Positions 5,963-28,285 of a stretch of 64,000 nucleotides of DNA are shown here, piece after piece. How positions within the stretch are numbered: the stretch's first letter is position 1; every line of letters starts with the position of its first letter. Under the pieces are notes generated by a model. That model was not told the DNA's origin and did no database searches. It worked only from the letters and a program-made list of their open reading frames with translations. Position numbers and translations under genes: made by a program. Source of the stretch: Mycolicibacterium cosmeticum (GTDB taxonomy: Bacteria; Actinomycetota; Actinomycetes; Mycobacteriales; Mycobacteriaceae); NCBI RefSeq assembly GCF_000613185.1, contig NZ_CCBB010000003.1:992001-1056000 (forward strand), in the 5' to 3' direction.

Positions 5963-5964
5963 GG

Positions 5965-6759: not shown

Positions 6760-6778
6760 CAGCCGCGCCGAAACATCC

Positions 6779-9156: not shown

Positions 9157-9165
9157 GACCGGTCC

Positions 9166-10011
9166 TCAGCCCGGCAGGGTCTCGCCGCCCAGCGGCGAGA
9201 GGACTTCGCCGCTGTAGTACGACGACAACAGATCGGCCGCGAAGAAGACGTACGACGGCGCGATCTCGTCGGGTTGCGCCGGGCGGCCCAGCGGGGTGTG
9301 ACCGCCGAACGATTCCACTTTGTCCTGCGGCATGGTGGCGGGGATCAGCGGTGTCCACACCGGTCCGGGCGCCACGCAGTTGACCCGGATCCGGCGGTCG
9401 GCCAGGGACTGCGCCAGCGCGTAGGTGAAGGCCAGGATGGCGCCCTTGGTGGCCGAATAGTCGATCAGCGTCTTGTTGCCGCGCAACCCGTTCACCGATG
9501 CGGTGTTGATGATGGCCGCGCCGTCCGGGAGGTGCTCCAGCGCCGCCTTGGTGACCCGGAAGAAGCTGTCTATGTTGACGGCGAAGGTGCGTCGCCACTG
9601 TTCGTCGGAGATCTCCGACAACGATTGCCGCGGCGCCTGGTAGGCGGCGTTGTTCACCAGGAGGTCCAGCCCACCCAGTTCTCCGACGGTGCGGCTGACC
9701 ACCGTCGCGCAGTGCCCCGCGTCGGCGAGGTCACCGGGCAGCAGCACGCACCGGCGCCCGGCGGCGCTCACCAGCGACGCGGTGTGCGCGGCGTCTTCGT
9801 CCTCCTGGAGGTAGGCGATGGCGACATCGGCGCCCTCCTTGGCGAATGCCACGGCCACCGCCCTGCCGATACCGGAATCCCCACCGGTGATCAGGGCGCG
9901 CCGCCCCGCCAGCAGGTCGCGGCCCACGTAGTGGCGCATCTCGTCGCGGGGCGGGTCCGCCATGTCCGCGGTGTGCCCGGGGTAGGGGATCACGTTGTCG
10001 GACGGCTCCAT
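9166..10011 (-). CDS. SDR-family oxidoreductase (YghA/glucose-dehydrogenase-like)
   Basis: A protein of 281 residues. An approximately 35-residue extension (NVIPYPGHTADMADPPRDEMRHYVGRDLL) precedes the NAD(P) site GGDSGIGRAVA. It then has NNAAYQ, the active-site Ser in NTASVNG and YSATKGA (Tyr and Lys of YxxxK), and a substrate loop APGPVWTPLIPA. The extension plus this pattern is typical of the SDR subgroup found in stress operons of bacteria. The substrate is unknown. It is the second gene of the operon that starts from the SigF-type promoter at 10230-10255. Confidence 0.85.
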   Translation of the reverse strand: MEPSDNVIPYPGHTADMADPPRDEMRHYVGRDLLAGRRALITGGDSGIGRAVAVAFAKEGADVAIAYLQEDEDAAHTASLVSAAGRRCVLLPGDLADAGHCATVVSRTVGELGGLDLLVNNAAYQAPRQSLSEISDEQWRRTFAVNIDSFFRVTKAALEHLPDGAAIINTASVNGLRGNKTLIDYSATKGAILAFTYALAQSLADRRIRVNCVAPGPVWTPLIPATMPQDKVESFGGHTPLGRPAQPDEIAPSYVFFAADLLSSYYSGEVLSPLGGETLPG

Positions 10012-10229: not shown

Positions 10230-10255
10230 GTACCCGGGCGGTCAAGATCGAAAAC
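10230..10255 (-). promoter_or_regulatory. SigF-type promoter, minus strand (GTTT-N16-GGGTAC)
   Basis: On the minus strand GTTT is at 10255-10252 and GGGTAC at 10235-10230 with 16 bases between, an exact consensus match. It would drive the acidic protein and the seven genes behind it. It is back-to-back with the plus-strand site at 10265. Confidence 0.65.
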
Positions 10256-10264
10256 ACTTCGCAC

Positions 10265-10289
10265 GTTTAAGAGAGAAGTGCCAGGGTAC
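10265..10289 (+). promoter_or_regulatory. SigF-type promoter, plus strand (GTTT-N15-GGGTAC)
   Basis: GTTT 10265-10268 and GGGTAC 10284-10289 with a 15-base spacer. Transcription would start just before ATG 10300, the first glycosyltransferase of the heptose cluster. Together with the minus-strand site it forms a divergent SigF promoter pair within 60 bases. Confidence 0.65.
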
Positions 10290-10299
10290 TTCGGCGTCC

Positions 10300-11283
10300 A
10301 TGCAGACGGACCACCAGCGCACAGTGCTCGTATGGCACGTGCACGGTTCCTGGACCGAATCGTTCGTCGCGGGCCCGCACCGCTACCTCGTTCCGGTCGC
10401 GACTGCCGGTGAGGAAGACGACGCACGTGGCCTCATGGGCCGCAATTGGCCACGCGCGCAGGAGGTCCCGCTCCATTCGTTGCGTGAGCACGATATCGAC
10501 CTGGTGGTGTTGCAGCGGCCGGAGGACCTGGCCGCCACGTACCTGTGGCTGGGCCTGCGGCCCGGGGTGGACATCCCGGCCGTCTATGTCGAGCACAATG
10601 CCCCACGGCCCCATCCGGTGGACAGCGTGCATCCCGTCGCGGGCCGCCGTGACATCCCCATCGTGCACGTCACCGATTACAACCGGCTGATGTGGGACAA
10701 CGGGATCGCGCCCACCTTCGTGATCGACCACGGTGTGGCCGACCCCGGCCACCTGTACACCGGCGACGTGGCCGCCGCGGCCACGATGATCAACGAGCCG
10801 TTGCGCCGGTGGCGCACCGTGGGCGCCGATCTGCTGGCCGAGCTGTCCAGGTCGGTTCCCGTCGATGCGTGGGGCATGGGCACCGAGGAGCTCAACCACG
10901 ACAGGGCCGGCCTGACCGGAAAGGTGCGCGGCAAAGGTGACGTGGCCGCCCCGCAGTTGTGGCGGCACGTCGCGCGGCGGCGGGTGTATCTGCACACCGC
11001 CCGCTGGACATCGTTGGGGCTGTCGCTGATCGAGGCGATGTATCTCGGTATGCCGGTGGTGGCGGTCGCCTCGACGATGGCGCCGCTGGTGGTACCGGCG
11101 CAGGCCGGCGTGGTGAGCGCCGACGTCCGGGCACTGGCCCGCGCGGTGGAGGGCTACGTGCGGGATCCGGCCGCGGCCGCGGCGGCAGGCAAAGCCGCCA
11201 GGGACTACGCCGTCGAGCATTTCGCGCTCGGCCGGTTCCTCGCGGAGTGGAACGACGTCATCGACGACCACTGCCGGAAATGA
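10300..11283 (+). CDS. GT-B glycosyltransferase (family 4-like)
   Basis: A protein of 327 residues. The C-terminal half has the GT4 nucleotide-sugar site: ARWTSLGLSLIEAMYLGMPVVAVAST (Glu in SLIEAM) followed by a late helix region with AARDYAVEHFALGRFL. The N-terminal half is a short Rossmann-like domain with VYVEHNAPRPHPVDSVHP and VHVTDYN. The donor and acceptor are unknown; from context it works on the heptose/xylose glycoconjugate. It starts right behind a SigF-type promoter, so it probably heads the plus-strand cluster. ATG 10300 is the only sensible start. Confidence 0.8.
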   Translation: MQTDHQRTVLVWHVHGSWTESFVAGPHRYLVPVATAGEEDDARGLMGRNWPRAQEVPLHSLREHDIDLVVLQRPEDLAATYLWLGLRPGVDIPAVYVEHNAPRPHPVDSVHPVAGRRDIPIVHVTDYNRLMWDNGIAPTFVIDHGVADPGHLYTGDVAAAATMINEPLRRWRTVGADLLAELSRSVPVDAWGMGTEELNHDRAGLTGKVRGKGDVAAPQLWRHVARRRVYLHTARWTSLGLSLIEAMYLGMPVVAVASTMAPLVVPAQAGVVSADVRALARAVEGYVRDPAAAAAAGKAARDYAVEHFALGRFLAEWNDVIDDHCRK

Positions 11284-11341
11284 GCCCGGGGACGGGCGCT
11301 GCCGTCGGCGTCGAGGCAGTTTGTTGGAGAAGGAAGGCGCA

Positions 11342-12568
11342 ATGAGGATAGCGATGGTGTCCGAGCACGCCAGTCCGCTTGCGGCGCTGGGCGGAGTGGA
11401 CGCCGGCGGACAGAACGTCCACGTGGCGGCGCTGTCGGCGGCGATGGCCCGGCGCGGGCACGAGGTGGCCGTGTACACCCGCCGCGACGACGCCGGCATC
11501 GACGAATGCGTGCGAACCCCGGACGGTTACACGGTGGTGCACGTACCGGCCGGACCAGCCGAACCCATTCCCAAGGACGAGATGTTGCCCTACATGGGGC
11601 AGTTCGCGCGGTTCCTGTACCAGCGCTGGTCGTCCAACCGGCCCGATATCGCGCACGCCCATTTCTGGATGTCCGGTGTCGCCACGCAGCTGGCCGCGCA
11701 ACCGCTGAATATCCCTGCGGTGCAGACCTTTCACGCGCTCGGGGTGGTCAAACGCCGGCACCAGGGCGGCCAGGACACCAGCCCCCTCGAGCGGCTCAAG
11801 CTGGAGGCGCTGGTCGCACGCAACGCCACGTGGGTGGCGGCCACCTGCACCGACGAGGTGTTCGAGCTGATCCGGTTGGGCCGGTCCAGGGCCCGCACCT
11901 CGGTGGTGCCGTGTGGGGTGGACATCGACCGGTTCACGCCCGACGGGCCGGTGGCGCAGCGCGGGGACATGCGGCGCATCATCAGTGTCGGCCGATTCGT
12001 GCCGCGCAAGGGATTCGACGTGGTGCTGCGGGCGCTGCCGGCGATCCCGGACACCGAATTCGTCATCGTCGGTGGGCCGGACGCCGCCCACCTGAACGAC
12101 GATGCCGAGGCACGGCGGCTGATGACCCTCGCCGAGGATCTCGGCGTGGCCGACCGCGTGCGGCTGTGCGGCGCGGTGGCCCGCGCCGACATGCCCGCGA
12201 TGCTGCGTTCGGCCGATGTGGTGGCGTGCACGCCGTGGTACGAACCGTTCGGCATCGTCCCGCTGGAGGCCATGGCGTGTGGGGTGCCGGTGGTCGCCGC
12301 CGCGGTGGGCGGGATGCTGGACACCGTCGTCGACGATGTGACCGGGCGGCTGGTGCCGCCGAAACGGCCGGACGTGTTCGCCGAAGTGGTCAATGGACTG
12401 CTGCGCAACGACTTTGCCCGCCGTGGTCTCGGCGCCGCGGGCCGGGACCGGGCCCGGGCCCGGTACTCCTGGGACCGGGTCGCCGCCGATACCCTGCGGC
12501 TCTACGACCGGCTCTGCCCGGTCGGGTTCGGCCACCCCCCGTCACGGACGAAGGTGTCGTCGGGATGA
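11342..12568 (+). CDS. GT4 glycosyltransferase (sucrose-phosphate-synthase/MshA-like)
   Basis: A protein of 408 residues. The N-terminus MVSEHASPLAALGGVDAGGQ has the GGxxxGGQNVHV donor loop of the MshA/sucrose-phosphate synthase branch. VGRFVPRKGFDVVLRALP opens the second domain, and YEPFGIVPLEAMACGVPVVAAAVGG is the EX7E catalytic and donor motif. It transfers a sugar from a nucleotide donor, in the cytosol. ATG 11342 has a good GGAAGG site. It is 58 bases after the previous gene and its end overlaps the convergent GT2 gene by 67 bases. Confidence 0.85.
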   Translation: MRIAMVSEHASPLAALGGVDAGGQNVHVAALSAAMARRGHEVAVYTRRDDAGIDECVRTPDGYTVVHVPAGPAEPIPKDEMLPYMGQFARFLYQRWSSNRPDIAHAHFWMSGVATQLAAQPLNIPAVQTFHALGVVKRRHQGGQDTSPLERLKLEALVARNATWVAATCTDEVFELIRLGRSRARTSVVPCGVDIDRFTPDGPVAQRGDMRRIISVGRFVPRKGFDVVLRALPAIPDTEFVIVGGPDAAHLNDDAEARRLMTLAEDLGVADRVRLCGAVARADMPAMLRSADVVACTPWYEPFGIVPLEAMACGVPVVAAAVGGMLDTVVDDVTGRLVPPKRPDVFAEVVNGLLRNDFARRGLGAAGRDRARARYSWDRVAADTLRLYDRLCPVGFGHPPSRTKVSSG

Positions 12569-13452
12569 GCACCTTCCAGCATCGCGAGGTGGCGTTCGAC
12601 GGCGGCGGGCAGGCGCCGGCGCGCGCGCAGCACCGACGGCAGCGACCGCACCGCCTGCCCGGTCGCCCGCAGGTGCGCGGTATCGCGCGCCGCGGACCCG
12701 AACAGGCTTGCCGCACTGCGCAGTCCGTGCCGCAGGGGCCTGCGCAGCCAGGAGGTGAGCGCGGTGTTGCGCAACACCCTGGCCTGCTGGGCGGCCGTCG
12801 GTTCGCGCAGCGGCGAGGGCTGGTGGAAGGCGGTCAGCTCCGGGCAGTAGCACAGCTGCCAGCCGGCCGCCGCCAGATCCATTGCCAACAACTGCTCCTC
12901 ACCGCGGAAATGCAGGATCGGGCTGAATCCGCCCACCGCCTCGAAGGCGCTCTTGCGCACCATGGCGGCGCACGCCATGAAGCCCAGGACGGCCGGGCCC
13001 GGCAGATCCGCCCGGCTCGGCAGCGGGCTGCCGGCCAGATGCGCCACCATCGGGTCCTCGCCGCCGCCCGGCCACACCACGGTGCGGGCGGCCAGCAGGG
13101 CCAGGTCGGCATGGCTGTCGAAGAGCTCGACCCCACGACCGGGGGAGTCGGGCGCCCACCACGAGTCGTCGTCGCAGAACGCGATGTACGGGGTGCGGCT
13201 GTTCGCGACGCCGATGTTGCGGGCCACGGCCCCCAGGTTATCGCCCAGCGCCAGCACCTGTACCCGCGGTTCGCCGGTGGCGACCCGGCGGATCCGCGCC
13301 ACCGAGTCGTCGTGGGAGTGGTTGTCCACCACCACGATCGGGCACCCGGTGGTGTCCAGCAACCGCTGAACCACGGCCGCGAGTTCGTCACCGCGGTCCC
13401 TGGTGGCGATCACGAAGGTCATCCGTTCATCGAGCGCTGCTGGACGAGTCAT
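12502..13452 (-). CDS. GT2 glycosyltransferase
   Basis: A protein of 316 residues, the only minus-strand gene in the glycoconjugate cluster. GT-A features are clear: MTFVIATRDRGDELAAVVQRLL, the VVVDNHSHDDS strand, NLGAVARNIGV, the metal-binding IAFCDDDSWW (DxD) and FRGEEQLLAMDLAAAGW. The C-terminal third (about residues 220-316) is a basic helical tail (RRPLRHGLRSAAS). ATG 13452 lies just downstream of a minus-strand SigF-type promoter; ATG 13422 is an alternative start. Its acceptor is unknown. It overlaps the GT4 gene tail-to-tail. Confidence 0.8.
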   Translation of the reverse strand: MTRPAALDERMTFVIATRDRGDELAAVVQRLLDTTGCPIVVVDNHSHDDSVARIRRVATGEPRVQVLALGDNLGAVARNIGVANSRTPYIAFCDDDSWWAPDSPGRGVELFDSHADLALLAARTVVWPGGGEDPMVAHLAGSPLPSRADLPGPAVLGFMACAAMVRKSAFEAVGGFSPILHFRGEEQLLAMDLAAAGWQLCYCPELTAFHQPSPLREPTAAQQARVLRNTALTSWLRRPLRHGLRSAASLFGSAARDTAHLRATGQAVRSLPSVLRARRRLPAAVERHLAMLEGAHPDDTFVRDGGWPNPTGQSRS

Positions 13453-13463
13453 AACCGGCACGG

Positions 13464-13488
13464 CTACCCACGGCAACGATTGGCAAAC
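13464..13488 (-). promoter_or_regulatory. SigF-type promoter, minus strand (GTTT-N15-GGGTAG)
   Basis: Minus-strand GTTT (13488-13485), 15 bases, GGGTAG (13469-13464). It points at the GT2 gene (start 13452) and lies in the 37-base gap between the divergent GT2 and epimerase genes. Confidence 0.55.
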
Positions 13489-13489
13489 C

Positions 13490-14458
13490 ATGACTGAACG
13501 CAGACGGGCCCTCGTCACCGGCGGCGGTGGCTTCCTGGGCAGCCACCTGTGCCGCCGGCTGCTGGACGACGGCATGCAGGTGCTGAGCCTGGACAATCTG
13601 TCCACCAGTGCACCGCGGGCCGATACCGCGCTGGCCGGTCGCCCCGGCTACCGGTTCATCCGGCGCGATATCGCCGACCCGCTCGACCCGGGCGAGGTGC
13701 CCGAGGTCGACGTCATCTTCCACCTGGCGTCGCCGGCCTCACCGGTGGACTACCTGCGGCTGCCGGTGCAGACGCTGCGCACCGGGGCGCTGGGCACGGC
13801 CAATGTCATCGCGCTCGCCGAACGGTTCGGGGCGCGGCTGGTGCTGGCCTCCACCAGTGAGGTGTACGGTGACCCGCTGCAGCATCCGCAGCGCGAAACC
13901 TATTGGGGCAATGTCAATCCCATCGGCCCGCGCAGCGTCTACGACGAGGCCAAGCGCTTCGCCGAGGCCTTGACCTTCGCGCACCGGCGGGCCAATGCGG
14001 TCGACACCGGCGTGGCACGCATCTTCAACACCTACGGCCCCGGTATGCGTGCCGACGACGGGCGGGTGGTGCCGACGTTCTGCGCCCAGGCGCTGTCCGG
14101 GCGGCCGTTGACGGTGCACGGATCCGGTGAGCAGACCCGCTCGCTGTGTTACGTCGACGACACCGTGGACGCGCTCGTCGCGCTGGCGGCCTCGGATTGT
14201 CCGGGCCCGGTCAACATCGGCAACCCGGACGAGCTCACCGTGCTGCAGATCGCCGAGATCATCAGGGACCTGGCGGGCAGCACCTCGCCGATCGAGTTCG
14301 TGCCGGCCCAGGGGGACGACCCGAAACGGCGTTGCCCCGACATCAGCGCGGCGGCCGAACTGTTGGGCTGGTATCCGCAGGTGACCTACAAGCAGGGACT
14401 GGCCGAGACGGTCGAATGGTTCGCGGGTACGGCAGCCGCGGCACGAGACAGCGAGTAA
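13490..14458 (+). CDS. UDP-glucuronate decarboxylase-like (UDP-xylose synthase) extended SDR
   Basis: A protein of 322 residues. TGGGGFLGSHLCRRLL is the NAD site. The string HLASPASPVDYLRLPVQTLR, then LASTSEVYGDPLQHPQRETYWG, NPIGPRSVYDEAKRFAE (Tyr151/Lys155) and ARIFNTYGPGMRADDGRVVP is the signature of UDP-glucuronate decarboxylases (UXS), including the RETYWGxVNPIGPR loop that contacts UDP-glucuronate. It would convert UDP-glucuronate to UDP-xylose. The UDP-glucose dehydrogenase-like gene at 22248 would supply the substrate. ATG 13490 was chosen because the Rossmann strand begins six residues later. Confidence 0.85.
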   Translation: MTERRRALVTGGGGFLGSHLCRRLLDDGMQVLSLDNLSTSAPRADTALAGRPGYRFIRRDIADPLDPGEVPEVDVIFHLASPASPVDYLRLPVQTLRTGALGTANVIALAERFGARLVLASTSEVYGDPLQHPQRETYWGNVNPIGPRSVYDEAKRFAEALTFAHRRANAVDTGVARIFNTYGPGMRADDGRVVPTFCAQALSGRPLTVHGSGEQTRSLCYVDDTVDALVALAASDCPGPVNIGNPDELTVLQIAEIIRDLAGSTSPIEFVPAQGDDPKRRCPDISAAAELLGWYPQVTYKQGLAETVEWFAGTAAAARDSE

Positions 14459-14473
14459 GAGGATTGGGGAAAC

Positions 14474-16099
14474 GTGCGGATCTTGGGAATCAACGGGGTG
14501 TTTCACGATCCCGCCGCCGCCCTGGTGGTGGACGGCCGGATCGTCGCGGCGGCCGAGGAGGAACGGTTCAGCCGGCGCAAACACGGCAAGCAGGCGGTGC
14601 CCTTCTCCACCTGGGAGCTGCCGGTGCAGTCGGCACGCTGGTGCCTGCAACAGGCCGGCCTGGAGCCGGCCGACCTGGACGCGATCGGCTACTCCTACGA
14701 TCCGCGGCTGATGGAATCCTCCAGCCAGGTCCCGGCGGATGTGGCGGGCCTGGACCGCGACTGGGAATACCTGCGCACGATGTACGCCCAGCGCGCACCG
14801 CAGTTCCTGAAAACGGCACTGCCCGGCCTGGATCCGGGCAAGGTGCGCTTCGTCCGCCATCACGTGGCGCATGCCGCGTCCAGCGCACTGGCCGCCCCCG
14901 ACCGGGACTGCGCGGTGCTCGTGGTGGACGGCCGCGGTGAACGGACGTCGATGCTGGCCGGTGTGTACACCGATGACAAGCTCGACGTGCTGGCCACCCA
15001 GGAGTTGCCGCATTCGCTGGGCCTGTTGTACGAGGATCTCACCGAACACCTCGGATTCCAGCGGTCCAGCGACGAATACAAGGTCATGGCGATGGCCTCC
15101 TACGGCCAACCGCGTTTCGCCGACCGGTTCCGGGAGTTGGTTCATCTGACCGACGACGGCGGGTTCCGCACCCATCGGCCGGATTGGTCGTCGTTCGGGT
15201 CGGAGTGGGACGACCGGGTGGACCTGGCGTGCAGTGTGCAGCGGGTGGTCGAGGAGGTGCTGCTGGGGCTGGTGCAGTGGCTACGCGCCCGCACCGAGCA
15301 CGAAACCCTCTGCCTGGCAGGGGGAGTGGCGCTCAACTGTGTGGCCAACTCGGTGCTGCACCGCGAAGGCGGATTCGACCGGGTGTGGGTACAGCCCGCG
15401 GCCGGTGACTCGGGCACCGCCCTGGGCGCGGCGTTGGCCCTGGCCGCCGAGGCGGGGGAGGCGATCACGCCCATGGGGTCGGCCGCGCTCGGCCGCGGAT
15501 GGTCGGACGACGAGATCGTGCGGGCACTGGAGGAGGCCGCGGTGCCCTACGAACGCCCCGGGGATCTGGCCGCCGCGGTCGGTGCGGCGTTGGCCGCCAA
15601 TCAGCTGATCGGTTGGTTCCAGGGCCGTTCCGAATTCGGCCCGCGGGCGCTGGGCCAGCGTTCGCTGTTGGCCGACCCCCGGCACGTCGACAATCTGGAG
15701 CGACTCAACAACGTCAAGGGGCGCGAACAGTTCCGGCCGGTCGCCCCGATGGTGTTGGCCGAGCGGGCTGGTGAGATCTTCTCCGGCGGCCCGATCCCCA
15801 GCCCGTACATGCTGTTCGTGCACGACGTGGCCCCGCAGTGGCGCGACCGCATCCCGGCGGTCACCCACGTCGACGGGACGGCCCGCATCCAGACCGTGGC
15901 AGCCGACGATCACCCGTTGCTGCACCGGACGATTCGGGTGTTCGCCGAGGCCACCGGGGTGCCGGTCGTCGTCAACACCAGCTTCAACACCGCGGGCCGG
16001 CCGATGGTGGACAGCCCGCGCGACGCGCTGGAGTGCTTCGGCAGCGCCCCCATCGACGTGCTGGCGATCGGACCCTGCCTGGTGCGGAGGCCGCGATGA
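14474..16099 (+). CDS. carbamoyltransferase (NodU/TobZ/CmcH family)
   Basis: A protein of 541 residues, normal for the family. It starts RILGINGVFHDPAAALVVDGRIVAAAEEERFSRRKH, the first Kae1-like strand pair. FVRHHVAHAASSAL holds the two metal-binding histidines of the carbamoyl-adenylate transfer site, and CLAGGVALNCVANS and GRSEFGPRALGQRSLLADPR are the ATP and carbamoyl-adenylate motifs. The C-terminal YrdC-like part ends VVVNTSFNTAGRPMVDSPRDA. It transfers carbamoyl from carbamoyl phosphate to a sugar hydroxyl, in the cytosol. GTG start 15 bases after the UXS-like gene; the stop overlaps the next gene (ATGA). Confidence 0.92.
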   Translation: MRILGINGVFHDPAAALVVDGRIVAAAEEERFSRRKHGKQAVPFSTWELPVQSARWCLQQAGLEPADLDAIGYSYDPRLMESSSQVPADVAGLDRDWEYLRTMYAQRAPQFLKTALPGLDPGKVRFVRHHVAHAASSALAAPDRDCAVLVVDGRGERTSMLAGVYTDDKLDVLATQELPHSLGLLYEDLTEHLGFQRSSDEYKVMAMASYGQPRFADRFRELVHLTDDGGFRTHRPDWSSFGSEWDDRVDLACSVQRVVEEVLLGLVQWLRARTEHETLCLAGGVALNCVANSVLHREGGFDRVWVQPAAGDSGTALGAALALAAEAGEAITPMGSAALGRGWSDDEIVRALEEAAVPYERPGDLAAAVGAALAANQLIGWFQGRSEFGPRALGQRSLLADPRHVDNLERLNNVKGREQFRPVAPMVLAERAGEIFSGGPIPSPYMLFVHDVAPQWRDRIPAVTHVDGTARIQTVAADDHPLLHRTIRVFAEATGVPVVVNTSFNTAGRPMVDSPRDALECFGSAPIDVLAIGPCLVRRPR

Positions 16100-17604
16100 C
16101 GGCCGCCCCCGACTTCGCCATCGTGGTCCCCACCATCGGGCGCGAGTCGCTGTACCGGCTGCTCGCGGTGCTGGACCGCGCACCCGGCCCGGCCCCGGCC
16201 GCGGTGCTCGTGGTCGACGACCGGCGCGCGGCGGCGCCACCGCTGCTGGCCGTGACCGACCGGTTGCCGATCACCGTGCTGCGCAGCGGCGGACGTGGGC
16301 CCGCCGCCGCGCGTAACACCGGGTGGCGCAGTGCCGGCCCGTCGGTGCGCTGGATCTGCTTCCTGGACGACGACGTGATCCCCGACGACGACTGGCTGAT
16401 GCGGCTGGGCTGCGACCTCGAGGCGGCCGAGCGGGCCGGCTGGGCCGCGACGCAAGGCCGGCTCACCGTCCCGGCCGAGCCGGGCCGGCGCGCCACCGAC
16501 GACGAGCGGCGCACCCAGCGACTGGCCCAGGCACAGTGGATCACCGCCGATATGGCCTACCGGCGTTCGGCGTTGGTCGCCGTCGGCGGCTTCGACGAGC
16601 GGTTCCCGCGCGCGTACCGGGAGGACTCGGACCTGGCGCTGCGCGTCACCCAGGCGGGCGGGCAGATCGGCCGCGGGCAGCGGCACTGCACACACCCGGT
16701 CGCCCCGGCCGGCTGGCGCAGCGCCGTGCGCGCGCAGATCGGCAACCACGACGACGCCCTGATGCGGCGCAAGCACGGCAGGCGCTGGCGCCGCGCCATC
16801 GGGGAGGGACGCGGCCGGCTACCCGGCCATATCGCCACCTCGGTCGCGGGCCTGGCCGCAGTGGTGGCGCTGGCCCTCGGGCGTCGGCGCGCGGCCGGCG
16901 TGGCCGCGGCGGGCTGGCTGGCCCTGACCACCGAATTCGGTGTGCGCCGGTTCGCCGCCGGTCCGCGCACGGCGGCCCAGGCGCTCCGGCTGGCCGTCAG
17001 CACCGTGGCCATCCCACCGGTGGCTGTCGCGCACCGGTTGCGAGGATGGTGGGATTACCGTGGCGCGCTGCGCAATCCACCGTTGGCGGTGCTGTTCGAC
17101 CGGGACGACACCATCATCGAGGACGGTCCGTACCTCAACGACCCCGCCGGTGTGCGTCCGGTGCCGGGCGCCGCCGCGGCGCTGGATCTGTTGCGCCGCC
17201 GCGGCTTGCGGCTGGGGGTGGTGACCAACCAGTCAGGCGTGGCCAAGGGACTGATCACACCGCACCAGCTGGCGTCGGTGAACGCCCGGGTCGACGAGGT
17301 GCTCGGACCGTTCGATGCATGGCAGGTGTGTGTGCACGACGCCGGGGACAATTGTGCCTGCCGCAAGCCGTCCCCCGGGATGGTGCAGGCCGCCGCGGAC
17401 GAGCTGGGGGTGCAGCCGTCGCGGTGTGTGATGATCGGCGACACCGGCGGCGACGTGGACGCCGCGCTGGCCGCCCATGCCGATGCGGTGCTGGTCCCGA
17501 CGGAACGCACACTGGCGCATGAGATCTCGGCGGCCCGCAGCCGCGCCCGGGTGGCGCCCACGTTGCGGGCGGCCGTCGACATGGTGCTCAGGGACTGCCG
17601 ATGA
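16096..17604 (+). CDS. fused GT2 glycosyltransferase and GmhB-type heptose bisphosphate phosphatase
   Basis: A 502-residue fusion. Residues 1-240 are a GT2 domain (IVVPTIGRESLYRLLAVLD, ARNTGWRSAG, CFLDDDVIPDDDW, FPRAYREDSDLALRV). A hydrophobic region follows (about 244-285), then from ~330 a HAD-IIIA domain. This has LFDRDDTIIEDGPYLNDP (the two catalytic Asp of DxD), VVTNQSGVAKG, the zinc loop CVH then CACRKPSPGM, and MIGDTGGDVDAA. The second half is the GmhB pattern, which removes a phosphate from heptose 1,7-bisphosphate; DRDDT replaces the usual DRDGT. With GmhA and HldE nearby, all ADP-heptose steps are present. Confidence 0.88.
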   Translation: MTAAPDFAIVVPTIGRESLYRLLAVLDRAPGPAPAAVLVVDDRRAAAPPLLAVTDRLPITVLRSGGRGPAAARNTGWRSAGPSVRWICFLDDDVIPDDDWLMRLGCDLEAAERAGWAATQGRLTVPAEPGRRATDDERRTQRLAQAQWITADMAYRRSALVAVGGFDERFPRAYREDSDLALRVTQAGGQIGRGQRHCTHPVAPAGWRSAVRAQIGNHDDALMRRKHGRRWRRAIGEGRGRLPGHIATSVAGLAAVVALALGRRRAAGVAAAGWLALTTEFGVRRFAAGPRTAAQALRLAVSTVAIPPVAVAHRLRGWWDYRGALRNPPLAVLFDRDDTIIEDGPYLNDPAGVRPVPGAAAALDLLRRRGLRLGVVTNQSGVAKGLITPHQLASVNARVDEVLGPFDAWQVCVHDAGDNCACRKPSPGMVQAAADELGVQPSRCVMIGDTGGDVDAALAAHADAVLVPTERTLAHEISAARSRARVAPTLRAAVDMVLRDCR

Positions 17605-18668
17605 GCGGGGCACTGGTGGCCAGGCTGGACAGCGCGGGCGATGTGTTGATCGCCGGGCCCGCCGTGCGGGCGGTGGCCGCCACCCACGGCCCGGTCACGC
17701 TGCTGGTGGGACCGCGCGGCCGCGCGGCCGCGCAGCTGTTGCCCGGTGTGCGCGCGGTCGTCGAATGGCAGGCGCCCTGGGTGGATTTCGACTCGCCCCC
17801 GGTGACCGCCGCCCACGTCGACCGGCTGCTGGCCGCGCTCGGCGAGGCCGCCCCCGACCGGGTCTACATCGCCACCTCGTTCCACCAGTCGCCGCTGCCG
17901 CTGGCCCTGCTGTGCCGGATGGCGGGGGTGCCGTGGATCGGCGCGATCAGCGAAGACTATCCCGGCACGCTGCTCGATCTGCGCCATCAGGTGCCGGCCG
18001 GTATCCCCGAACCGGAACGGGCGCTGTCACTGGTGCGCGCGGGGGGCTGCGAGTTACCGCCCGATGACGCCGGGGAGCTGCGGGTGACACCGCAGGAGTT
18101 GAGCGCAGACCTGCGCCGCGTCATCGGCCCCGGCGATTTCGTCGTGTTCCATCCCGGCGCGGCCGTCCCGGCGCGCCAGCCGTCGGTCCGGCGCAGCGAA
18201 CGCATGGTGGCGGCGCTGGTGGCGGCCGGTCATCGGGTGGTGGTCACCGGTGATGCCGCCGAGCGTGGCCAAACCGCCTTCGTCGCAGGCGATGTCGCCG
18301 TCGACCTCGGTGGCCGGACCAGCTTCGCCGAGCTGGCCGCCGTGTTCGCCGCCGCGCGGGTGGTGGTCGCACCCAACACCGGGCCGGCGCATCTGGCGGC
18401 GGCCGTCGGGACGCCGGTGGTTTCGCTGTTCGCACCCGTGGTACCCGCATCGCAATGGATGCCCTACGCACGCAGAGTCATCCGGCTCGGCGATCAGCAC
18501 GCGCCGTGCCGTGACAGCAGGGCCCGCACCTGCCCCGTACCCGGCCACCCGTGCCTGGACGGTATCACCGACGCCGAAGTGCTCAGCGCCGTCGAACAAC
18601 TAGGAGACAGACATGACCGAGACGACGATGATCGCCACGCATCTGTCCGCGCTGCGGCAGGCCGCTGA
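17601..18668 (+). CDS. GT9 heptosyltransferase-like glycosyltransferase
   Basis: A protein of 355 residues in family GT9 (ADP-heptose:LPS heptosyltransferase fold). VARLDSAGDVLIAGPAVRAVAA is the N-terminal glycine loop, VVFHPGAAVPARQPSVRR the mid-domain loop that binds ADP phosphates, and VVVAPNTGPAHLAAAVGTPVVSLF the conserved D/N-T-G-P-x-H donor site. ATG overlaps the previous gene by four bases. Its last ~18 codons overlap gmhA by 56 bases, an unusually long overlap, and those residues are a charged tail (DRHDRDDDDRH). Proposed donor: the ADP-heptose made by the neighbours. Confidence 0.88.
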   Translation: MSGALVARLDSAGDVLIAGPAVRAVAATHGPVTLLVGPRGRAAAQLLPGVRAVVEWQAPWVDFDSPPVTAAHVDRLLAALGEAAPDRVYIATSFHQSPLPLALLCRMAGVPWIGAISEDYPGTLLDLRHQVPAGIPEPERALSLVRAGGCELPPDDAGELRVTPQELSADLRRVIGPGDFVVFHPGAAVPARQPSVRRSERMVAALVAAGHRVVVTGDAAERGQTAFVAGDVAVDLGGRTSFAELAAVFAAARVVVAPNTGPAHLAAAVGTPVVSLFAPVVPASQWMPYARRVIRLGDQHAPCRDSRARTCPVPGHPCLDGITDAEVLSAVEQLGDRHDRDDDDRHASVRAAAGR

Positions 18669-19197
18669 CCACATCGCCGGTCAGGAACACCGCATCGGCC
18701 GGTGGGGCCGGCAGCTGGCCGCGGTCCTGGGCACCGGTGGCCGGTTGCTGGCGTGCGGTAACGGTGGCAGCGCGGCCGAGGCCCAGCACCTGACCGCGGA
18801 ACTGGTCGGCCGGTTCCGCGACGAGCGACAACCGTTGTCGGCCATCTCCTTACATGCCGACACCTCGGCGCTCACCGCGATCGCCAACGACTACGGCGTC
18901 GACGAGATGTTCGCCAGGGGAGTGCGCGCCCACGGGCGTCCCGGTGACGTGCTGGTCGCCTTGTCGACGAGCGGCACCAGCCCCAACGTGCTCGCCGCGG
19001 TCAAGGCCGCGCACGAGGTGGGTATGACCACCTGGGCGCTGACCGGCCCGGCGCCCAATCCGCTGGCCGCCATGTGCGATGACGCCCTGTGTGTGGAGGC
19101 CACCAGCACGGCCACCGTGCAGGAGATGCACCTGTTCCTGGTACACGCGCTGTGCATCGAACTCGACGAGCAGCTGCTGGGCGGTCACCGTGGCTAG
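18613..19197 (+). CDS. gmhA: sedoheptulose 7-phosphate isomerase
   Basis: A protein of 194 residues, the usual GmhA length. It contains the SIS fold with GGRLLACGNGGSAAEAQHLTAELVGRF (phosphate-binding loop and the His/Glu pair), ERQPLSAISLHADTSALTAIANDYG, LVALSTSGTSPNVLAAV and the C-terminal TVQEMHLFLVHALC. All are hallmarks of GmhA, which isomerises sedoheptulose 7-phosphate to D-glycero-D-manno-heptose 7-phosphate. An AGGAGACAGAC ribosome site precedes ATG 18613. This is the entry step into the heptose pathway of the cluster. Confidence 0.93.
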   Translation: MTETTMIATHLSALRQAADHIAGQEHRIGRWGRQLAAVLGTGGRLLACGNGGSAAEAQHLTAELVGRFRDERQPLSAISLHADTSALTAIANDYGVDEMFARGVRAHGRPGDVLVALSTSGTSPNVLAAVKAAHEVGMTTWALTGPAPNPLAAMCDDALCVEATSTATVQEMHLFLVHALCIELDEQLLGGHRG

Positions 19198-20596
19198 CCC
19201 CCGCGCAGCGCGCATCGTGGTTGTCGGCGACTCGATGCTCGACATCGACGTGGACGGCACCGCCGACCGCCTCAGCCCGGAAGCGCCTGTGCCGGTGGTG
19301 GATACCCGGCGCGTCTGGCACCGCCCGGGTGGGGCGGGACTGGCCGCGTTGCTCGCCGCGCGCAGCGCCGACGAGGTCGTCCTGGTCACCGCAGTCGGGG
19401 CCGACGCCGACGCGCAGACCCTCACCGGGTTGTTGGCGGCGGCCGGGGTGCGGGTGGTGGCGCTGCCCATGGCGGGCGCCACCGTGTGCAAGACTCGGAT
19501 CCGCGCCCATGGGCAGCCGATGCTGCGGATCGACAAGGGCGACGGTACCGCGGCCGGTGCCGACCTGCCCGGCGAGGTGGCCGACGTGCTGGACCGCGCC
19601 ACCGCGGTGTGTGTCGCCGACTACGGGCGCGGTGTCACCGCGCACCCGCAGTTGCGCGGTCTGCTTTCCGCAGCGGCGCAACGTATTCCGGTGGTGTGGG
19701 ATCCGCACCCGCGCGGTGCCGACCCGGTCGGTGGCAGCGCCCTGGTGACCCCGAACCACAAGGAGGCCGGAGCCGCGACGGCGGCGGCACTGCGCAGGCG
19801 CTGGAACGCCCGGGCGGTCTGCGTGACCCGGGGTGCCCGCGGGGCCGTCCTCGACGCCGGTGACAGCGGCCCCGTGCACATCCCGGTACCCGACGGTCAC
19901 GCCGCGGCCCCGCACCAGGATTCGTGCGGGGCGGGCGACCGGTTCGCGGTGGCCGCGACCGTCGAACTGGCCCGCACCGGCGACGTGCGGTTCGCGGTCA
20001 CCGAAGCGGTGGCGGCCGCCAGCCGGTTTGTCACCGCCGGCGGGGCTGGCAGTGTTTCCAGCGCCGGCGGGGCCGGCAGTGTTTCCAGCGCCGCCTCGGA
20101 TCACACCCCCGCCGTTTCGCTCGCCCCGGACTTCGGCGCCATCACCGGCGATGTCGACTCGGTCCGCGACCGCCTGCGCGCCGGTGGGGTGCGCACCCTG
20201 GTCGCCACCGGCGGCTGTTTCGATCTGCTGCACACCGGCCACGTCCGGCTGCTGCGGCAGGCCCGCCAACTCGGTGATGCGTTGGTGGTGCTGGTCAACT
20301 CCGATGCCTCGGTCCGTGCGCTGAAGGGGCCGGGCCGACCGGTGGTGGCCGACGTGGACCGGGTCCGGGTGCTCTCCGCGCTGGCATGCGTGGACGCCGT
20401 CGTGGTGTTCGAGGAAACCTCACCGGAGGCCGTGCTGGAGCGGCTGCGGCCCCAGATCTGGGTCAAGGGCGGCGATTACGCCGACACCCGCCTGCCGGAG
20501 GCCGAGGTGGTCGCCCGGCACGGCGGTGAGGTGGTGTTGCTGCCCACCGTCGCCGGTTACTCGTCGACGAAACTGATCGCCGCCGCGCGGTCATGA
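19190..20596 (+). CDS. hldE: bifunctional heptose 7-phosphate kinase / heptose 1-phosphate adenylyltransferase
   Basis: A 468-residue two-domain protein. Residues 1-~300 are a PfkB-type kinase: VVVGDSMLDIDVDGTADRLSPEAPVPVVD, the GGAGLAALLAA loop, and DSCGAGDRFA (~244-253) with the catalytic Asp. Residues ~330-468 are an adenylyltransferase: ATGGCFDLLHTGHVRLLRQA (HxGH) and IWVKGGDYADTRLPE, then GYSSTKLI. This is HldE, making heptose 1,7-bisphosphate and, after the phosphatase step, ADP-heptose. The linker holds a GGAGSVSSA duplication. The GTG start overlaps the gmhA stop by eight bases. No epimerase (HldD) gene is seen. Confidence 0.93.
   Translation: MASPRAARIVVVGDSMLDIDVDGTADRLSPEAPVPVVDTRRVWHRPGGAGLAALLAARSADEVVLVTAVGADADAQTLTGLLAAAGVRVVALPMAGATVCKTRIRAHGQPMLRIDKGDGTAAGADLPGEVADVLDRATAVCVADYGRGVTAHPQLRGLLSAAAQRIPVVWDPHPRGADPVGGSALVTPNHKEAGAATAAALRRRWNARAVCVTRGARGAVLDAGDSGPVHIPVPDGHAAAPHQDSCGAGDRFAVAATVELARTGDVRFAVTEAVAAASRFVTAGGAGSVSSAGGAGSVSSAASDHTPAVSLAPDFGAITGDVDSVRDRLRAGGVRTLVATGGCFDLLHTGHVRLLRQARQLGDALVVLVNSDASVRALKGPGRPVVADVDRVRVLSALACVDAVVVFEETSPEAVLERLRPQIWVKGGDYADTRLPEAEVVARHGGEVVLLPTVAGYSSTKLIAAARS
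20039..20092 (+). repeat. 27-bp tandem duplication in the hldE interdomain linker
   Basis: Units 20039-20065 and 20066-20092 differ at one base (T/C). They encode GGAGSVSSA twice, in frame. The result is a flexible Gly/Ser linker between kinase and adenylyltransferase domains. Confidence 0.9.
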
Positions 20597-20614
20597 CAAC
20601 GCAAGGAGCAGAAC

Positions 20615-21310
20615 ATGCCGGCTGGTCATGTCGGGAACGTCATCATCACGGGTGGATCGTCGGGGCTCGGCGCCGCGACCGCCGAAGCGGTTGCCGCACA
20701 GGGCGGTACACCGCTGATCCTGGACCGTAGCAGCCCCACGGGGAAGTACCCGTACCTGTGCGTGGACGTCGCCGACAGTGACGCGGTCGACGTCGCGGTG
20801 CGGGCCATGGCCGACGAGGTGGACGGCCGGATCGACGGGCTGTTCACCGCCGCCGGCGTGGATGCCTGCGGCAAACTGGCCGATATCGCGACCAAGGACT
20901 GGGAGCGGGTCATCCACGTCAACCTGTTGGGCACCGCGGCCGCCGTGCGCGCGGCGCTGCCGTTCCTGCGATCCACCCACGGCCGGATCGTCACCTGCGC
21001 ATCGACGTTGGGCATCAAGGCGGTCAGCGATGCCACCGCCTACTGCGCGTCGAAGTTCGGTGTCGTCGGGTTCAGCCGAGCCCTGGCCGCGGAACTGGCC
21101 GGCGAGGTCGGGGTCACCATGCTGATCCCGGGCGGCATGCAGACGGCGTTCTTCGACGGCCGCGACGAGCAGTACAAGCCGCCGCCGGACGCCAAGCTCA
21201 ACGATCCTGCGCATGTCGCCCAGGCCATCCTGTTCGCCCTGTCCCAGCCCGCCGGCTGTGAGGTCCGGGAGCTGGTGGTGTGTGCGTCGACGGAGCCGTC
21301 GTGGCCGTGA
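20615..21310 (+). CDS. classical SDR-family oxidoreductase in the heptose cluster
   Basis: A protein of 231 residues with the classical SDR layout: NVIITGGSSGLGAATAEAVA (NAD site), LCVDVADSD, FTAAGVDACGKL, CASTLG (Ser) and YCASKFGVVG (Tyr and Lys), then MLIPGGMQTAFFDG. It is too short and of the wrong class to be the heptose 6-epimerase HldD, which is an extended SDR. It could oxidise or reduce a sugar carbon of the heptose or xylose unit, but no substrate can be read from the sequence. It lies 18 bases after hldE with a good AAGGAG site and is coupled to the GT9 gene behind it. Confidence 0.82.
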   Translation: MPAGHVGNVIITGGSSGLGAATAEAVAAQGGTPLILDRSSPTGKYPYLCVDVADSDAVDVAVRAMADEVDGRIDGLFTAAGVDACGKLADIATKDWERVIHVNLLGTAAAVRAALPFLRSTHGRIVTCASTLGIKAVSDATAYCASKFGVVGFSRALAAELAGEVGVTMLIPGGMQTAFFDGRDEQYKPPPDAKLNDPAHVAQAILFALSQPAGCEVRELVVCASTEPSWP

Positions 21311-22251
21311 CCGCCGCCGACCCCGTCGAGATCCTGGTGTTGCGCGCCCTCGGGTTGGGTGACCTGCTGACCGGGTTCCCGGCGCTACGCGCGCTGCGCA
21401 AGGCGCACCCGGGGGCCCGGATCGTGTTGGCCACCCCGGAACACCTGGGCCCGTTGGCGAGGTTGTCCCGCGCGATCGACGACATCGAACCGACCCCCGG
21501 CCTGGGTCGGTTGCGTCCGCGGCGCCGGCGGCCGGATCTGGCGGTGAACCTGCACGGTTGCGGCCCGCAGAGCATCGCCGACCTGCTCGGGGTGCAGCCC
21601 CGGTCCATCCTCACCCATCGGCACCCGGATTTTCCCGACCTGCCCGGACCGCCCTGGCGCACCGATGTGCACGAGGTGCAGCGCTGGTGCGCCCTGTTGG
21701 AATGGGCCGGGATGCCCGGCGACCCCGATGATCTCGGTATCGAGCGTCCCGAAGGATTCCCGGACCGGTCCGGGGTGGTGGTGGTCCACCCCGGTGCCGG
21801 CGCGGCGGCCCGGCGGTGGCCCGAACCGCGGTTCGCCGAAGTCGCCGCCGCATTGCACGACGAGGGCCACACCGTGGTGATCACCGGCTCCGCCGACGAA
21901 CGCGAACTGGCCGACGGCATCGCCAGGCACGCCGGGCTGCCGCCAGAGTCGGTGCTGGCCGGCGGCCTGGAGCTGCTCGACCTGGTGGCGCTGATCAGTG
22001 ACAGCCGGCTGGTCATCTGCGGTGACACCGGTGTCGGGCATATCGCCTCGGCCACCGGCACACCGTCGGTGCTGTTGTTCGGCCCCACCCCGCCGCAGCA
22101 CTGGGGACCACCGGGAACGGGCAGGCACATCGTGCTCTGGGCGGGCGACCGCGGGGATCCGCACGCCGAGGTGCCGCATTCCGGTTTGCTGCTGATCACC
22201 GTGCAGCGGGTGCTCGACGCCGGCCGAACCCTGTTGCGGGAGTGCGCATGA
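21307..22251 (+). CDS. second GT9 heptosyltransferase-like glycosyltransferase
   Basis: A protein of about 314 residues. EILVLRALGLGDLLTGFPALRALRKAHP is the classic GT9 opening with the GLGDLL loop. VVVVHPGAGAAARRWPEPRFAEVA and LVICGDTGVGHIASATGTPSVLLFGPTPP (D-T-G-V-G-H donor site) follow. It is more typical of heptosyltransferases than the first GT9 protein. GTG 21307 overlaps the previous stop (GTGA), though GTG 21301 is possible. It probably adds an ADP-heptose-derived unit, giving two heptosyl transfers in the pathway. Confidence 0.88.
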   Translation: MTAADPVEILVLRALGLGDLLTGFPALRALRKAHPGARIVLATPEHLGPLARLSRAIDDIEPTPGLGRLRPRRRRPDLAVNLHGCGPQSIADLLGVQPRSILTHRHPDFPDLPGPPWRTDVHEVQRWCALLEWAGMPGDPDDLGIERPEGFPDRSGVVVVHPGAGAAARRWPEPRFAEVAAALHDEGHTVVITGSADERELADGIARHAGLPPESVLAGGLELLDLVALISDSRLVICGDTGVGHIASATGTPSVLLFGPTPPQHWGPPGTGRHIVLWAGDRGDPHAEVPHSGLLLITVQRVLDAGRTLLRECA

Positions 22252-23540
22252 CGGCCGGTGTGGTGGGCGCCGGTTATGTCGGCCTGGCAACCGCCGTGTG
22301 CCTGGCCCGGCGAGGTCACCACACGGTGTGCGTCGACACCGACACCGCCAAGGTGGACGGTCTGCGCACCGGCGCCTGCACACTGGACGAGCCGGGCCTG
22401 CCCGAGCTGCTGACCGCGGGACTGGTGGCCGGGACACTGGAATTCAGCACCGACTACCGCACCCTGACCGGCTGCGACGTGGTGTTCGTGTGCGTGCCGA
22501 CGCCCAGCGGTGCCGAGGGCGCCGCGGATCTCGGCGCGGTGCACACCTGCCTGGCCGAGCTGAAGCGCGTGCTGACCGCCGGGGCCATCGTGGTGATCAA
22601 GTCGACCGTACCGGTCGGAACAACCCGCGCCGCCGCGGAATTCTTGTCCGACCGCGCAATTCACGCGGTGTCCAATCCCGAGTTCCTGCGCGAGGGGCAC
22701 GCGGTCACTGACGCGATGCATCCGGACCGCATCGTCATCGGGACACCCGACCGTGAGGTGGCCACCCGGCTGAGCGCCCTGTACGGCACGGAGTCGGGAG
22801 AGGTGCTGTGGATGAGCCGGGAGAGCGCCGAGCTGGCCAAGTACGCGAGCAACGCGTTCCTGGCGGTGAAGCTGTCCTACACCAACGCCTTGGCTCAGTT
22901 GTGCACCGAGGTCGGCGCCGACGTCCGCGACGTGACGGGCTGTATGGGCGCCGATGACCGGATCGGCCCGCATTTCCTGCAGCCGGGCCCGGGGTGGGGC
23001 GGCTCCTGCCTGCCCAAGGACACTGCGGCGCTGTTGCACACCGGCCGGCGGCACGGCGTGGAGCTGCCCGAAGTCGCCGCCGCGCGGGCCACCAACGCCG
23101 CGCAGACCGATCGCATCCTGACCACGCTGACCCGGCATACCGGCCAACCGCTGGCCTCGATGCGGGTCACCGCCCTGGGACTGACGTTCAAGGCCGGCAC
23201 CGGCGACGTGCGGGCCTCGCCCGCGCTGACGATCTGTGCGGCGCTGACCGCGGCGGGCACCGAGGTGGCCGGGCACGACCCGCGGCTCGACGTCATCGAC
23301 ACCGCGACGCTGCGCCGCAGCGCGATCACGGCGGTCACCGACCCCTACCTCGCGACGAAGGGCTCCGATGCCATCGTGGTACTCACCGAATGGCCGGAGT
23401 TCCGCGACCTGGATTGGGCGCGGATCGCCGAGAACGCGCCCGGTGCGGTGGTGGTCGACACCCGCAACCTGCTGGACGGCGCCGCGCTGGCGGGTACCGG
23501 CTTGACCTATCTGGGCAATGGCACCCCGTCAGGTTTCTGA
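22248..23540 (+). CDS. UDP-glucose/GDP-mannose dehydrogenase family (likely UDP-glucose 6-dehydrogenase)
   Basis: A protein of 430 residues. VVGAGYVGLATAVCLARRGH is the N-terminal NAD site, VFVCVPTPSG and IVVIKSTVPVGTT continue the domain, and NPEFLREGHAVTDAMHPDRIVIG is the substrate loop. PGWGGSCLPKDTAALL contains the catalytic Cys (about residue 254), and ALGLTFKAGTGDVRASPA marks the C-terminal domain. The EFLREGxAxxDxxxPxRIVIG pattern favours UDP-glucose 6-dehydrogenase, producing UDP-glucuronate for the UXS-like decarboxylase at 13490. ATG 22248 overlaps the previous stop. It is the last gene of the cluster. Confidence 0.9.
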   Translation: MTAGVVGAGYVGLATAVCLARRGHHTVCVDTDTAKVDGLRTGACTLDEPGLPELLTAGLVAGTLEFSTDYRTLTGCDVVFVCVPTPSGAEGAADLGAVHTCLAELKRVLTAGAIVVIKSTVPVGTTRAAAEFLSDRAIHAVSNPEFLREGHAVTDAMHPDRIVIGTPDREVATRLSALYGTESGEVLWMSRESAELAKYASNAFLAVKLSYTNALAQLCTEVGADVRDVTGCMGADDRIGPHFLQPGPGWGGSCLPKDTAALLHTGRRHGVELPEVAAARATNAAQTDRILTTLTRHTGQPLASMRVTALGLTFKAGTGDVRASPALTICAALTAAGTEVAGHDPRLDVIDTATLRRSAITAVTDPYLATKGSDAIVVLTEWPEFRDLDWARIAENAPGAVVVDTRNLLDGAALAGTGLTYLGNGTPSGF

Positions 23541-23915: not shown

Positions 23916-23992
23916 ATCAGCCGTCCCAGGTCAAATCCCGCAACTGCGTTTGAACCCTGGCAACAGCAGGGTATGACACCGCCATGGCATGG

Positions 23993-24239: not shown

Positions 24240-24677
24240 ATGACTGGGATTAACGGCGACGACGGCGTGCCGGCCTCCGGCGACCGGTCTGTCGAGATTC
24301 GGGTGGCCGCGCGGCTGGAGAACCTGGCGGTGCTGCGCACGTTGGTCGCGGCGGCCGCGACGTTCGAGGATCTCGACATCGATTCCGTCGCCGACCTGCG
24401 CCTGGCCGTCGACGAGGCGTGTACCCGGTTGATCCGGTCGGCCGCGCCGGACTCCGTCCTGGTGGTCCAGATCGACCCCGGCGACGACGCCGTGAAGGTC
24501 CACGCGTCGACGACCTGCCAGGGCGACGACGCCATCGTCGCGCCGGACAGCTTCAGCTGGCACGTGCTGCGTTCGCTGGTCTCCGACGTCCGGACCTTCG
24601 GGGATGGTCAGCATGCCGGCGCCGGGCGCCTGGTCGGGATCTCGTTGACCGCGAAGCGAGTGGGCCTGCTGCAGTGA
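24240..24677 (+). CDS. rsbW: anti-sigma-F factor (serine kinase-like)
   Basis: A protein of 145 residues, the same length as M. tuberculosis RsbW/UsfX as I recall it. It carries the degenerate GHKL ATPase fold: EIRVAARLENLAVLRTLVAAAA, VADLRLAVDEACTRLIRSA (N-box region, in which the usual Asn is replaced) and DSFSWHVLRSLVSDV. It would bind and hold SigF until released by anti-anti-sigma partners. GGAGG (24231-24235) is ideally spaced for ATG 24240, and the stop overlaps the sigF start (GTGA), so the pair is co-translated. A GGGTAG lies at 24206 but no matching -35 was found. Confidence 0.9.
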   Translation: MTGINGDDGVPASGDRSVEIRVAARLENLAVLRTLVAAAATFEDLDIDSVADLRLAVDEACTRLIRSAAPDSVLVVQIDPGDDAVKVHASTTCQGDDAIVAPDSFSWHVLRSLVSDVRTFGDGQHAGAGRLVGISLTAKRVGLLQ

Positions 24678-27946: not shown

Positions 27947-27948
27947 GG

Positions 27949-28266: not shown

Positions 28267-28285
28267 GCCCACGATCCTGGCGCGG

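Follow-up and report, generated by a model that had tools for sequence, protein, structure and literature searches.

The system described here lies in a window of 64,000 nucleotides from Mycolicibacterium cosmeticum (contig NZ_CCBB010000003.1, positions 992,001 to 1,056,000; source genome of 6.46 Mb in five contigs), in which a run of twelve genes for heptose metabolism, glycosyl transfer, and carbamoylation (window positions 10300-23540) directly precedes the genes rsbW and sigF. The run is best read as the mycobacterial version of the actinobacterial cwg gene set, equipped with SigF-type promoters and making a predicted carbamoylated heptosyl oligosaccharide, probably for the cell envelope, a reading that we hold to be correct with a probability of roughly two in three. 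It draws on features computed from the DNA, i.e., gene families, intact active-site motifs, synteny, conserved SigF-type motifs, and linkage to sigF. Operons of this type were already known; what appears to be new is the mycobacterial form with its promoters and its sigF linkage, and neither a mycobacterial heptose cluster nor SigF control of one was found in the open-licence literature.

Gene Content, Synteny, and Distribution

The twelve genes follow one another almost without gaps, several neighbours overlapping, and their families were assigned by Pfam and NCBIfam scans. At the head stand two plus-strand genes for GT4 glycosyltransferases, GT4a (10300-11283) and GT4b (11342-12568), the second of which converges, with a 67-base overlap, on the minus-strand gene for a divergent GT2 glycosyltransferase (12502-13452). 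Nine plus-strand genes complete the run: a predicted UDP-glucuronate decarboxylase of the NAD-epimerase family (UXS, 13490-14458), a NodU/TobZ-type O-carbamoyltransferase (14474-16099), a GT2 domain fused to a GmhB-type heptose-bisphosphate phosphatase of the HAD family (GT2-GmhB, 16096-17604), a first protein of the GT9 (heptosyltransferase) family (GT9a, 17601-18668), the sedoheptulose 7-phosphate isomerase GmhA (18613-19197), HldE with its heptose-7-phosphate kinase and heptose-1-phosphate nucleotidyltransferase domains (19190-20596), a short-chain dehydrogenase (short SDR, 20615-21310), the second GT9 protein (GT9b, 21280-22251), and a nucleotide-sugar dehydrogenase that is probably a UDP-glucose 6-dehydrogenase (UGD, 22242-23540). 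An earlier interpretation of the same stretch made from its letters and open reading frames (hereafter, the sequence-only reading) had named these twelve genes, all of which were recovered by the family scans, and had pointed to their co-occurrence in other genomes as a check. That co-occurrence is conserved: in 30 of 38 related mycobacterial loci the full set of twelve is present, with gene order and strands unchanged.

These 38 loci were drawn from 40 stretches of 39 genomes, with the genome of the window excluded and two stretches (L067, L068) left out for their distant HldE and different context. Across the genus, 48 of 198 genomes have an HldE match, which in two of them (G034, G068) is distant only; eight of the 48, besides that of the window, lie outside the examined loci. 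In a set of 80 named loci, taken from 417 relatives, overlapping in part with the genomes of the 38, and including some cut by contig ends, 49 hold all twelve genes and 44 hold them in the same order and orientation. In a sample of the phylum with 396 genomes from 236 genera, the GT2-GmhB model matched 35 genomes and 23 genera, in some cases through a single domain. Judged by this protein, the closest named relative among the matches listed is Mycolicibacterium canariasense (90 % identity over the best segment).

Enzymes of the Predicted Pathway

The isomerase, kinase, phosphatase, and nucleotidyltransferase of the ADP-D,D-heptose pathway are all present, and the GmhA, GmhB, and HldE models rank first or among the first for their proteins or domains. 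Their active-site motifs, with residues taken to be catalytic as in their families, are intact in the window proteins and in nearly all 38 related loci, e.g., the GAGD motif in 37/38 HldE copies and the cysteine-histidine motif of GmhB in 36/37. Together these enzymes would convert sedoheptulose 7-phosphate to ADP-D,D-heptose. The D,D form is expected because no HldD-type epimerase in the genome reaches the cut-off for that family (best score, 107.3 bits vs. 274.6 bits). The sequence (F/L)xxGRSTT is a published hallmark of nucleotide promiscuity (PMC11573728); its arginine is replaced by tyrosine in HldE of the window and in 38/38 related copies. ADP-heptose is the favoured prediction for the nucleotide-heptose donor, as the sequence-only reading had held, and a GDP-heptose (HddC) route is not favoured, since the nucleotidyltransferase is of the HldE kind. 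The arrangement resembles the ADP-heptose pathway of Gram-negative lipopolysaccharide (LPS) in its GmhA, GmhB, and HldE-type enzymes and its GT9 proteins, but differs from it in lacking an HldD above cut-off and in the fusion of GmhB to a GT2 domain. No lipid A context is known in mycobacteria.

A second sugar nucleotide is suggested by the NAD-epimerase, which matches UXS1 chains at 1.5e-100 in a search of the PDB, compared with 2.1e-37 for the next kind of enzyme, and which, by this similarity, is a UDP-glucuronate decarboxylase; its top-ranked NCBIfam assignment, dTDP-glucose dehydratase, was rejected on the strength of that difference. Because this enzyme is accompanied by the nucleotide-sugar dehydrogenase, UDP-xylose is expected, provided that the dehydrogenase uses UDP-glucose, in which case the two proteins would lead from UDP-glucose through UDP-glucuronate to UDP-xylose.

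The carbamoyltransferase contains both Pfam domains of its family along with the HHxxH and NTSFN motifs, which are retained in 37/37 copies, and its sequence is close to those of TobZ and GdmN, in agreement with the earlier proposal of a sugar O-carbamoyltransferase. The inner-core heptose of Pseudomonas LPS bears a carbamoyl group whose addition is attributed to WapO in accounts of that system (PMC8005017, PMC10569645). WapO (PA5005), as described there, is likewise a NodU-family-like carbamoyltransferase that occurs with heptose enzymes and acts on a core heptose; it belongs to another phylum with another envelope, and the likeness is drawn from its description. Because of this precedent, a carbamoyl-heptose is the leading guess for the modification made by the mycobacterial enzyme. 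A similar module occurs in another phylum on a plasmid of Burkholderia multivorans (L218, 6411-12796), where genes for an SDR, a HAD-IIIA phosphatase, GT9, a carbamoyltransferase (48 % identical), a further glycosyltransferase, GT9, and GT4 adjoin sigma-54 regulators and an ABC transporter gene, a possible exporter.

Relationship to the Streptomyces cwg Operon

The cwg operon of Streptomyces coelicolor (SCO6179-6190) comprises twelve genes that, in one report, include those for the phosphoheptose isomerase CwgH, the bifunctional synthase/transferase CwgI, and several transferases (PMC5839063). Another report describes the operon as a sigma-E target that depends in part on this factor and is switched on by vancomycin, with a cell wall glycan as its predicted product (PMC6767563). 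By these published names, cwg resembles the mycobacterial run in its number of genes, its heptose isomerase, its bifunctional heptose enzyme, and its transferases. The content of a cwg-type set, namely a UXS-like epimerase, carbamoyltransferase, GT2, GmhB, GT9, two GT4 proteins, GmhA, HldE, and a further GT9, is found together in the mycobacterial cluster. On a Streptomyces plasmid, the annotated order is epimerase, carbamoyltransferase, glycosyltransferase (GT), HAD phosphatase, GT9, GT, GT, SIS, rfaE2, GT9, GT, GT, so that GmhA and HldE take the eighth and ninth places of twelve, which fits the names cwgH and cwgI as published. Putative Streptomyces genomes hold homologues of the same genes, and Nonomuraea gerenzanensis carries a variant. 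The two systems differ in that cwg is reported as a sigma-E target while SigF-type motifs are found here, and in that the mycobacterial set has GmhB fused to GT2, a different gene order, and an added short SDR and nucleotide-sugar dehydrogenase. The sequence-only reading had not recognised this kinship with cwg, as far as the published descriptions define it, and its interpretation was incomplete in that respect.

Two Streptomyces plasmids may be mentioned by name. The linear plasmid p65_CHABEC of Streptomyces sp. CA-256286 (L216, 1-16867) carries a cwg-type set of twelve genes flanked by PP2C, CBS, GAF-ANTAR, and STAS genes, a stress-signalling setting, and the HldE match on plasmid pFRL3 was set aside since it lies in a different set, one that includes radical SAM and P450 genes.

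SigF-Type Promoter Motifs and Their Reach

In M. smegmatis, the SigF consensus is GTTT-N(14-19)-GGGTA, and in the study that describes it, several SigF targets show this motif at a distance of 8 to 11 bases from their start codon and others farther away (PMC4694148). The cluster has two exact GTTT-N15-GGGTA motifs, one on the plus strand at 10265-10288, 11 bases 5' of the GT4a start codon, and one on the minus strand at 13465-13488, 12 bases 5' of the GT2 start codon. The cluster thus resembles the M. smegmatis SigF regulon, as described there, in its consensus, in several of the distances between motif and start codon, and in a nearby rsbW-sigF pair with ChaB; the words "heptose" and "carbamoyl" are absent from the main text of the study, so that the set is not among the targets so worded there. 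The exact pattern occurs 22 times in the 6.46-Mb genome, compared with 12 times for its reversed form; at that frequency ~0.045 matches would be expected in the 13.3 kb of the cluster, which has two. Evidence from this one genome is modest; together with counts from other species, it is strong.

For these counts, a strict motif (GTTT and GGGTA with a spacer of 15 or 16 bases) was scored in the 38 mycobacterial loci. It precedes GT2 in 33 of 33 counted loci, the remainder being one in which 14 % of GT2 was aligned and no motif was seen (L054) and four that have no GT2, and it precedes GT4a in 29 of 35, with four of the other six showing a near form that ends in GGGAT or GGGAA. The motif is found before UXS in 10/35 loci and before the carbamoyltransferase gene in 4/37. 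For the remaining eight genes, 296 upstream windows were scored, and none contains it. In 37 of 38 loci the motif stands ahead of one or more of GT4a, GT2, UXS, and the carbamoyltransferase gene, the exception (L056) being a stretch that ends at a contig edge. Nineteen non-mycobacterial loci, five of which hold only the part comprising GT2-GmhB and GT9a, extend the pattern to Nocardia, Amycolatopsis, and Saccharomonospora, where the motif precedes the carbamoyltransferase gene in 14/14 counted loci, several of them from strains of one species and hence not independent, and UXS in 6/14. The two exact motifs to which the sequence-only reading had drawn attention are therefore both present and conserved across species.

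That reading had also placed SigF in front of the whole cluster, which stands for GT4a and GT2; the heptose genes have no motif of their own here. The motif at 10265 serves the two GT4 genes, and the 120 bases ahead of UXS contain no motif within one mismatch, either in this genome or in 24 of 35 related loci, so that the block of nine genes that runs from UXS to UGD and includes the heptose genes is not directly fronted by SigF in M. cosmeticum. This block would be expressed either by read-through from the GT4 pair across the antisense GT2 gene or from another promoter. Control by SigF may accordingly be limited to the GT4 pair and the divergent GT2, with the heptose block constitutive or otherwise regulated and SigF tuning decoration rather than the supply of heptose, an alternative to be taken seriously although we consider it somewhat improbable. 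It gains from the convergence of GT4b and GT2, whose overlap would make any read-through to UXS antisense to GT2. Against it, the strict motif immediately precedes UXS or the carbamoyltransferase gene in 13/38 mycobacterial loci, themselves a minority, and in all 14 counted non-mycobacterial loci. A loose match, GTTG-N15-GGGCA, located within GT2 and ahead of UXS in many loci, was set aside because it falls within conserved coding sequence.

If the cluster belongs to the SigF regulon as we propose, the freeing of SigF from RsbW by stress, or in stationary phase, would directly increase transcription of the GT4 and GT2 genes; the heptose block would respond to SigF directly in some species and, in this one, by way of read-through or another promoter.

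Nature of the Product

From the enzyme families we infer the individual activities and, beyond these, a product, its acceptor, its envelope location, and its role. The two GT9, two GT4, and two GT2 enzymes would build a heptose-containing oligosaccharide, and the NodU-type enzyme would add a carbamoyl group to it, with a heptose as the most plausible site, in the manner attributed to WapO. GT9b is clearly closest to solved heptosyltransferases (4.6e-18) and GT9a weakly so (7.5e-6). The stress-induced carbamoylated heptosyl product of the sequence-only reading is thus upheld in part, in its ADP-heptose route, its carbamoyltransferase, and its SigF promoters.

On its preference for a small soluble glycoside, the evidence is divided. 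No polymerase, flippase, or exporter was seen among the genes of the run, as that preference supposed, while the cwg precedent, in so far as its product is described, points to the wall through a predicted glycan. A small soluble or secreted glycoside, e.g., one built on a phosphorylated soluble acceptor, is an unlikely but credible alternative to an envelope glycan. The closest relatives of GT4b are MshA, the nearest curated model, matched below its cut-off, and a sucrose-phosphate-synthase-like chain. The acceptors of MshA and of sucrose-phosphate synthase are soluble, and the likeness to MshA keeps a soluble acceptor possible. The carbamoyltransferase family, moreover, also tailors antibiotics, as in the cases of TobZ and GdmN. 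On the other side are the vancomycin induction and predicted wall product of cwg (PMC6767563) and the fact that the twelve families include no scaffold gene of the peptide or polyketide kind.

Several observations weigh against the envelope oligosaccharide and the cwg kinship that we favour, in addition to the missing polymerase, flippase, and exporter and the gaps in SigF coverage described above. The scores of GmhA, GmhB, and HldE all fall under the curated equivalog cut-offs. The match to cwg of S. coelicolor is drawn through gene names and other Streptomyces loci rather than its own sequence, and a search of four putative Streptomyces loci gave no exact sigma-E motif; loose sigma-E matches in three named loci say little. 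The hydrophobic segment of GT2-GmhB is a weak hint of membrane placement, since the same hydropathy measure flags six other proteins of the set. The set is also dispensable, being present, as judged by HldE, in only 46 of 198 genomes of the genus.

Linkage to sigF and Its Paralogues

The regulatory part of the sequence-only reading was incomplete, in that the adjoining sigF had gone unmentioned. Directly downstream of the cluster lie genes for an RsbW-like anti-sigma factor (HATPase_c_2, 24240-24677, plus strand) and for SigF (NF005514, 454 bits vs. a cut-off of 372; 24674-25426, plus strand), followed by a convergent gene for a STAS-domain protein (25397-25837, minus strand) and by ChaB. A SigF-type motif with a longer spacer, GTTT-N17-GGGTA, stands ahead of rsbW-sigF (23948-23973, plus strand).

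A close HldE is encoded in 46 genomes of the genus, and for 39 of these (the 38 loci and the window) the cluster was observed directly; the other seven are counted by their HldE and all fall in the unlinked class. The main sigF lies within 20 kb in 24 of the 46, and in seven others a sigF paralogue (55-59 % identical) lies 5 to 10 kb downstream of HldE, so that sigF or a paralogue is within 20 kb in 31. The 15 genomes with no sigF within that distance weigh against the reading that we favour, and nine of these have none on the same contig among the matches listed (down to E 1e-80). In a tree that included 13 of the unlinked paralogues and nine main SigF proteins, the seven linked paralogues group together as a single clade (100/99), separate from both, although two of the seven were flagged as long branches; they may represent a sigma factor lineage dedicated to the cluster. 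These paralogues belong to loci L196-L202 (genomes G019, G054, G112, G137, G152, G196, and G197). In M. senegalense (L077) and M. wolinskyi (L072), RsbW- and STAS-like genes follow the cluster with no sigF between them, and sigF lies ~4-5 kb past the examined stretch (in L072, if the contig is the same).

That the motifs arose by chance or reflect DNA similarity inherited around sigF, with the set outside SigF control, is very improbable, for although in this genome the motif outnumbers its reversed form by a factor of only about two and sigF adjoins the cluster here and in many genomes, so that neighbours could share old DNA, the reversed motif gave 1 match against 125 in the 38 mycobacterial loci and 4 against 49 in the non-mycobacterial ones, loci without the main sigF in their 20-kb stretch, a subset that includes some with sigF or a paralogue just beyond it, keep the motif (GT4a, 14/15; GT2, 14/14), it recurs in three other genera, and the mean identity of the mycobacterial spacers is 0.34 to 0.40 while the nine motif bases stay fixed. 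Because the spacers have diverged in this way, simple DNA similarity does not account for the constancy of the nine motif bases; chance was rejected on the conservation across species, which supports selection on the SigF-type promoters.

Flanking Genes

A further SigF-type motif, GTTT-N16-GGGTA on the minus strand (10231-10255), faces an SDR gene upstream of the cluster (9166-10011). Ahead of the cluster, the minus strand carries haem-oxygenase-like, DoxX, and Nramp-type genes (4964-9598), and an Nramp-type or SDR gene is retained upstream in many related loci. A minus-strand purine-breakdown run near sigF (27047-30693) encodes uricase, OHCU decarboxylase, and a xanthine/uracil permease fused to a second OHCU decarboxylase domain. 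No tRNA and no Rfam match was found anywhere in the 64-kb window. In loci of other species, the genes flanking the cluster include those for CheB, CheR-PAS, STAS, catalase, ANTAR, and sigma factor proteins (L104, 402-4110; L131, 17990-21264; L066, 16569-19573).

Significance

The cluster represents a conserved, chemically uncharacterised actinobacterial glycan set linked to the general stress sigma factor of mycobacteria, for which exact genes and promoters can now be named. A broader and distinctly tentative proposal, which we think less likely to be true than false, is that an envelope oligosaccharide composed of carbamoylated D,D-heptose and xylose is maintained for states of stress by many mycobacteria and by other actinobacteria, as a Gram-positive equivalent of the carbamoyl-heptose core of Pseudomonas LPS, that its gene set is tied to SigF-family genes and, in one lineage, to a SigF paralogue of its own, and that stress would in this way lead to the synthesis of ADP-heptose. 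ADP-heptose is an agonist of the vertebrate receptor ALPK1 and a known innate-immune agonist. If it is really made by these enzymes, the range of this agonist would extend to mycobacteria, bacteria seldom counted among the makers of heptose. A gene set of one kind that answers to sigma-E in Streptomyces and stands behind SigF promoters here would, moreover, amount to a clear rewiring of the output of envelope stress.

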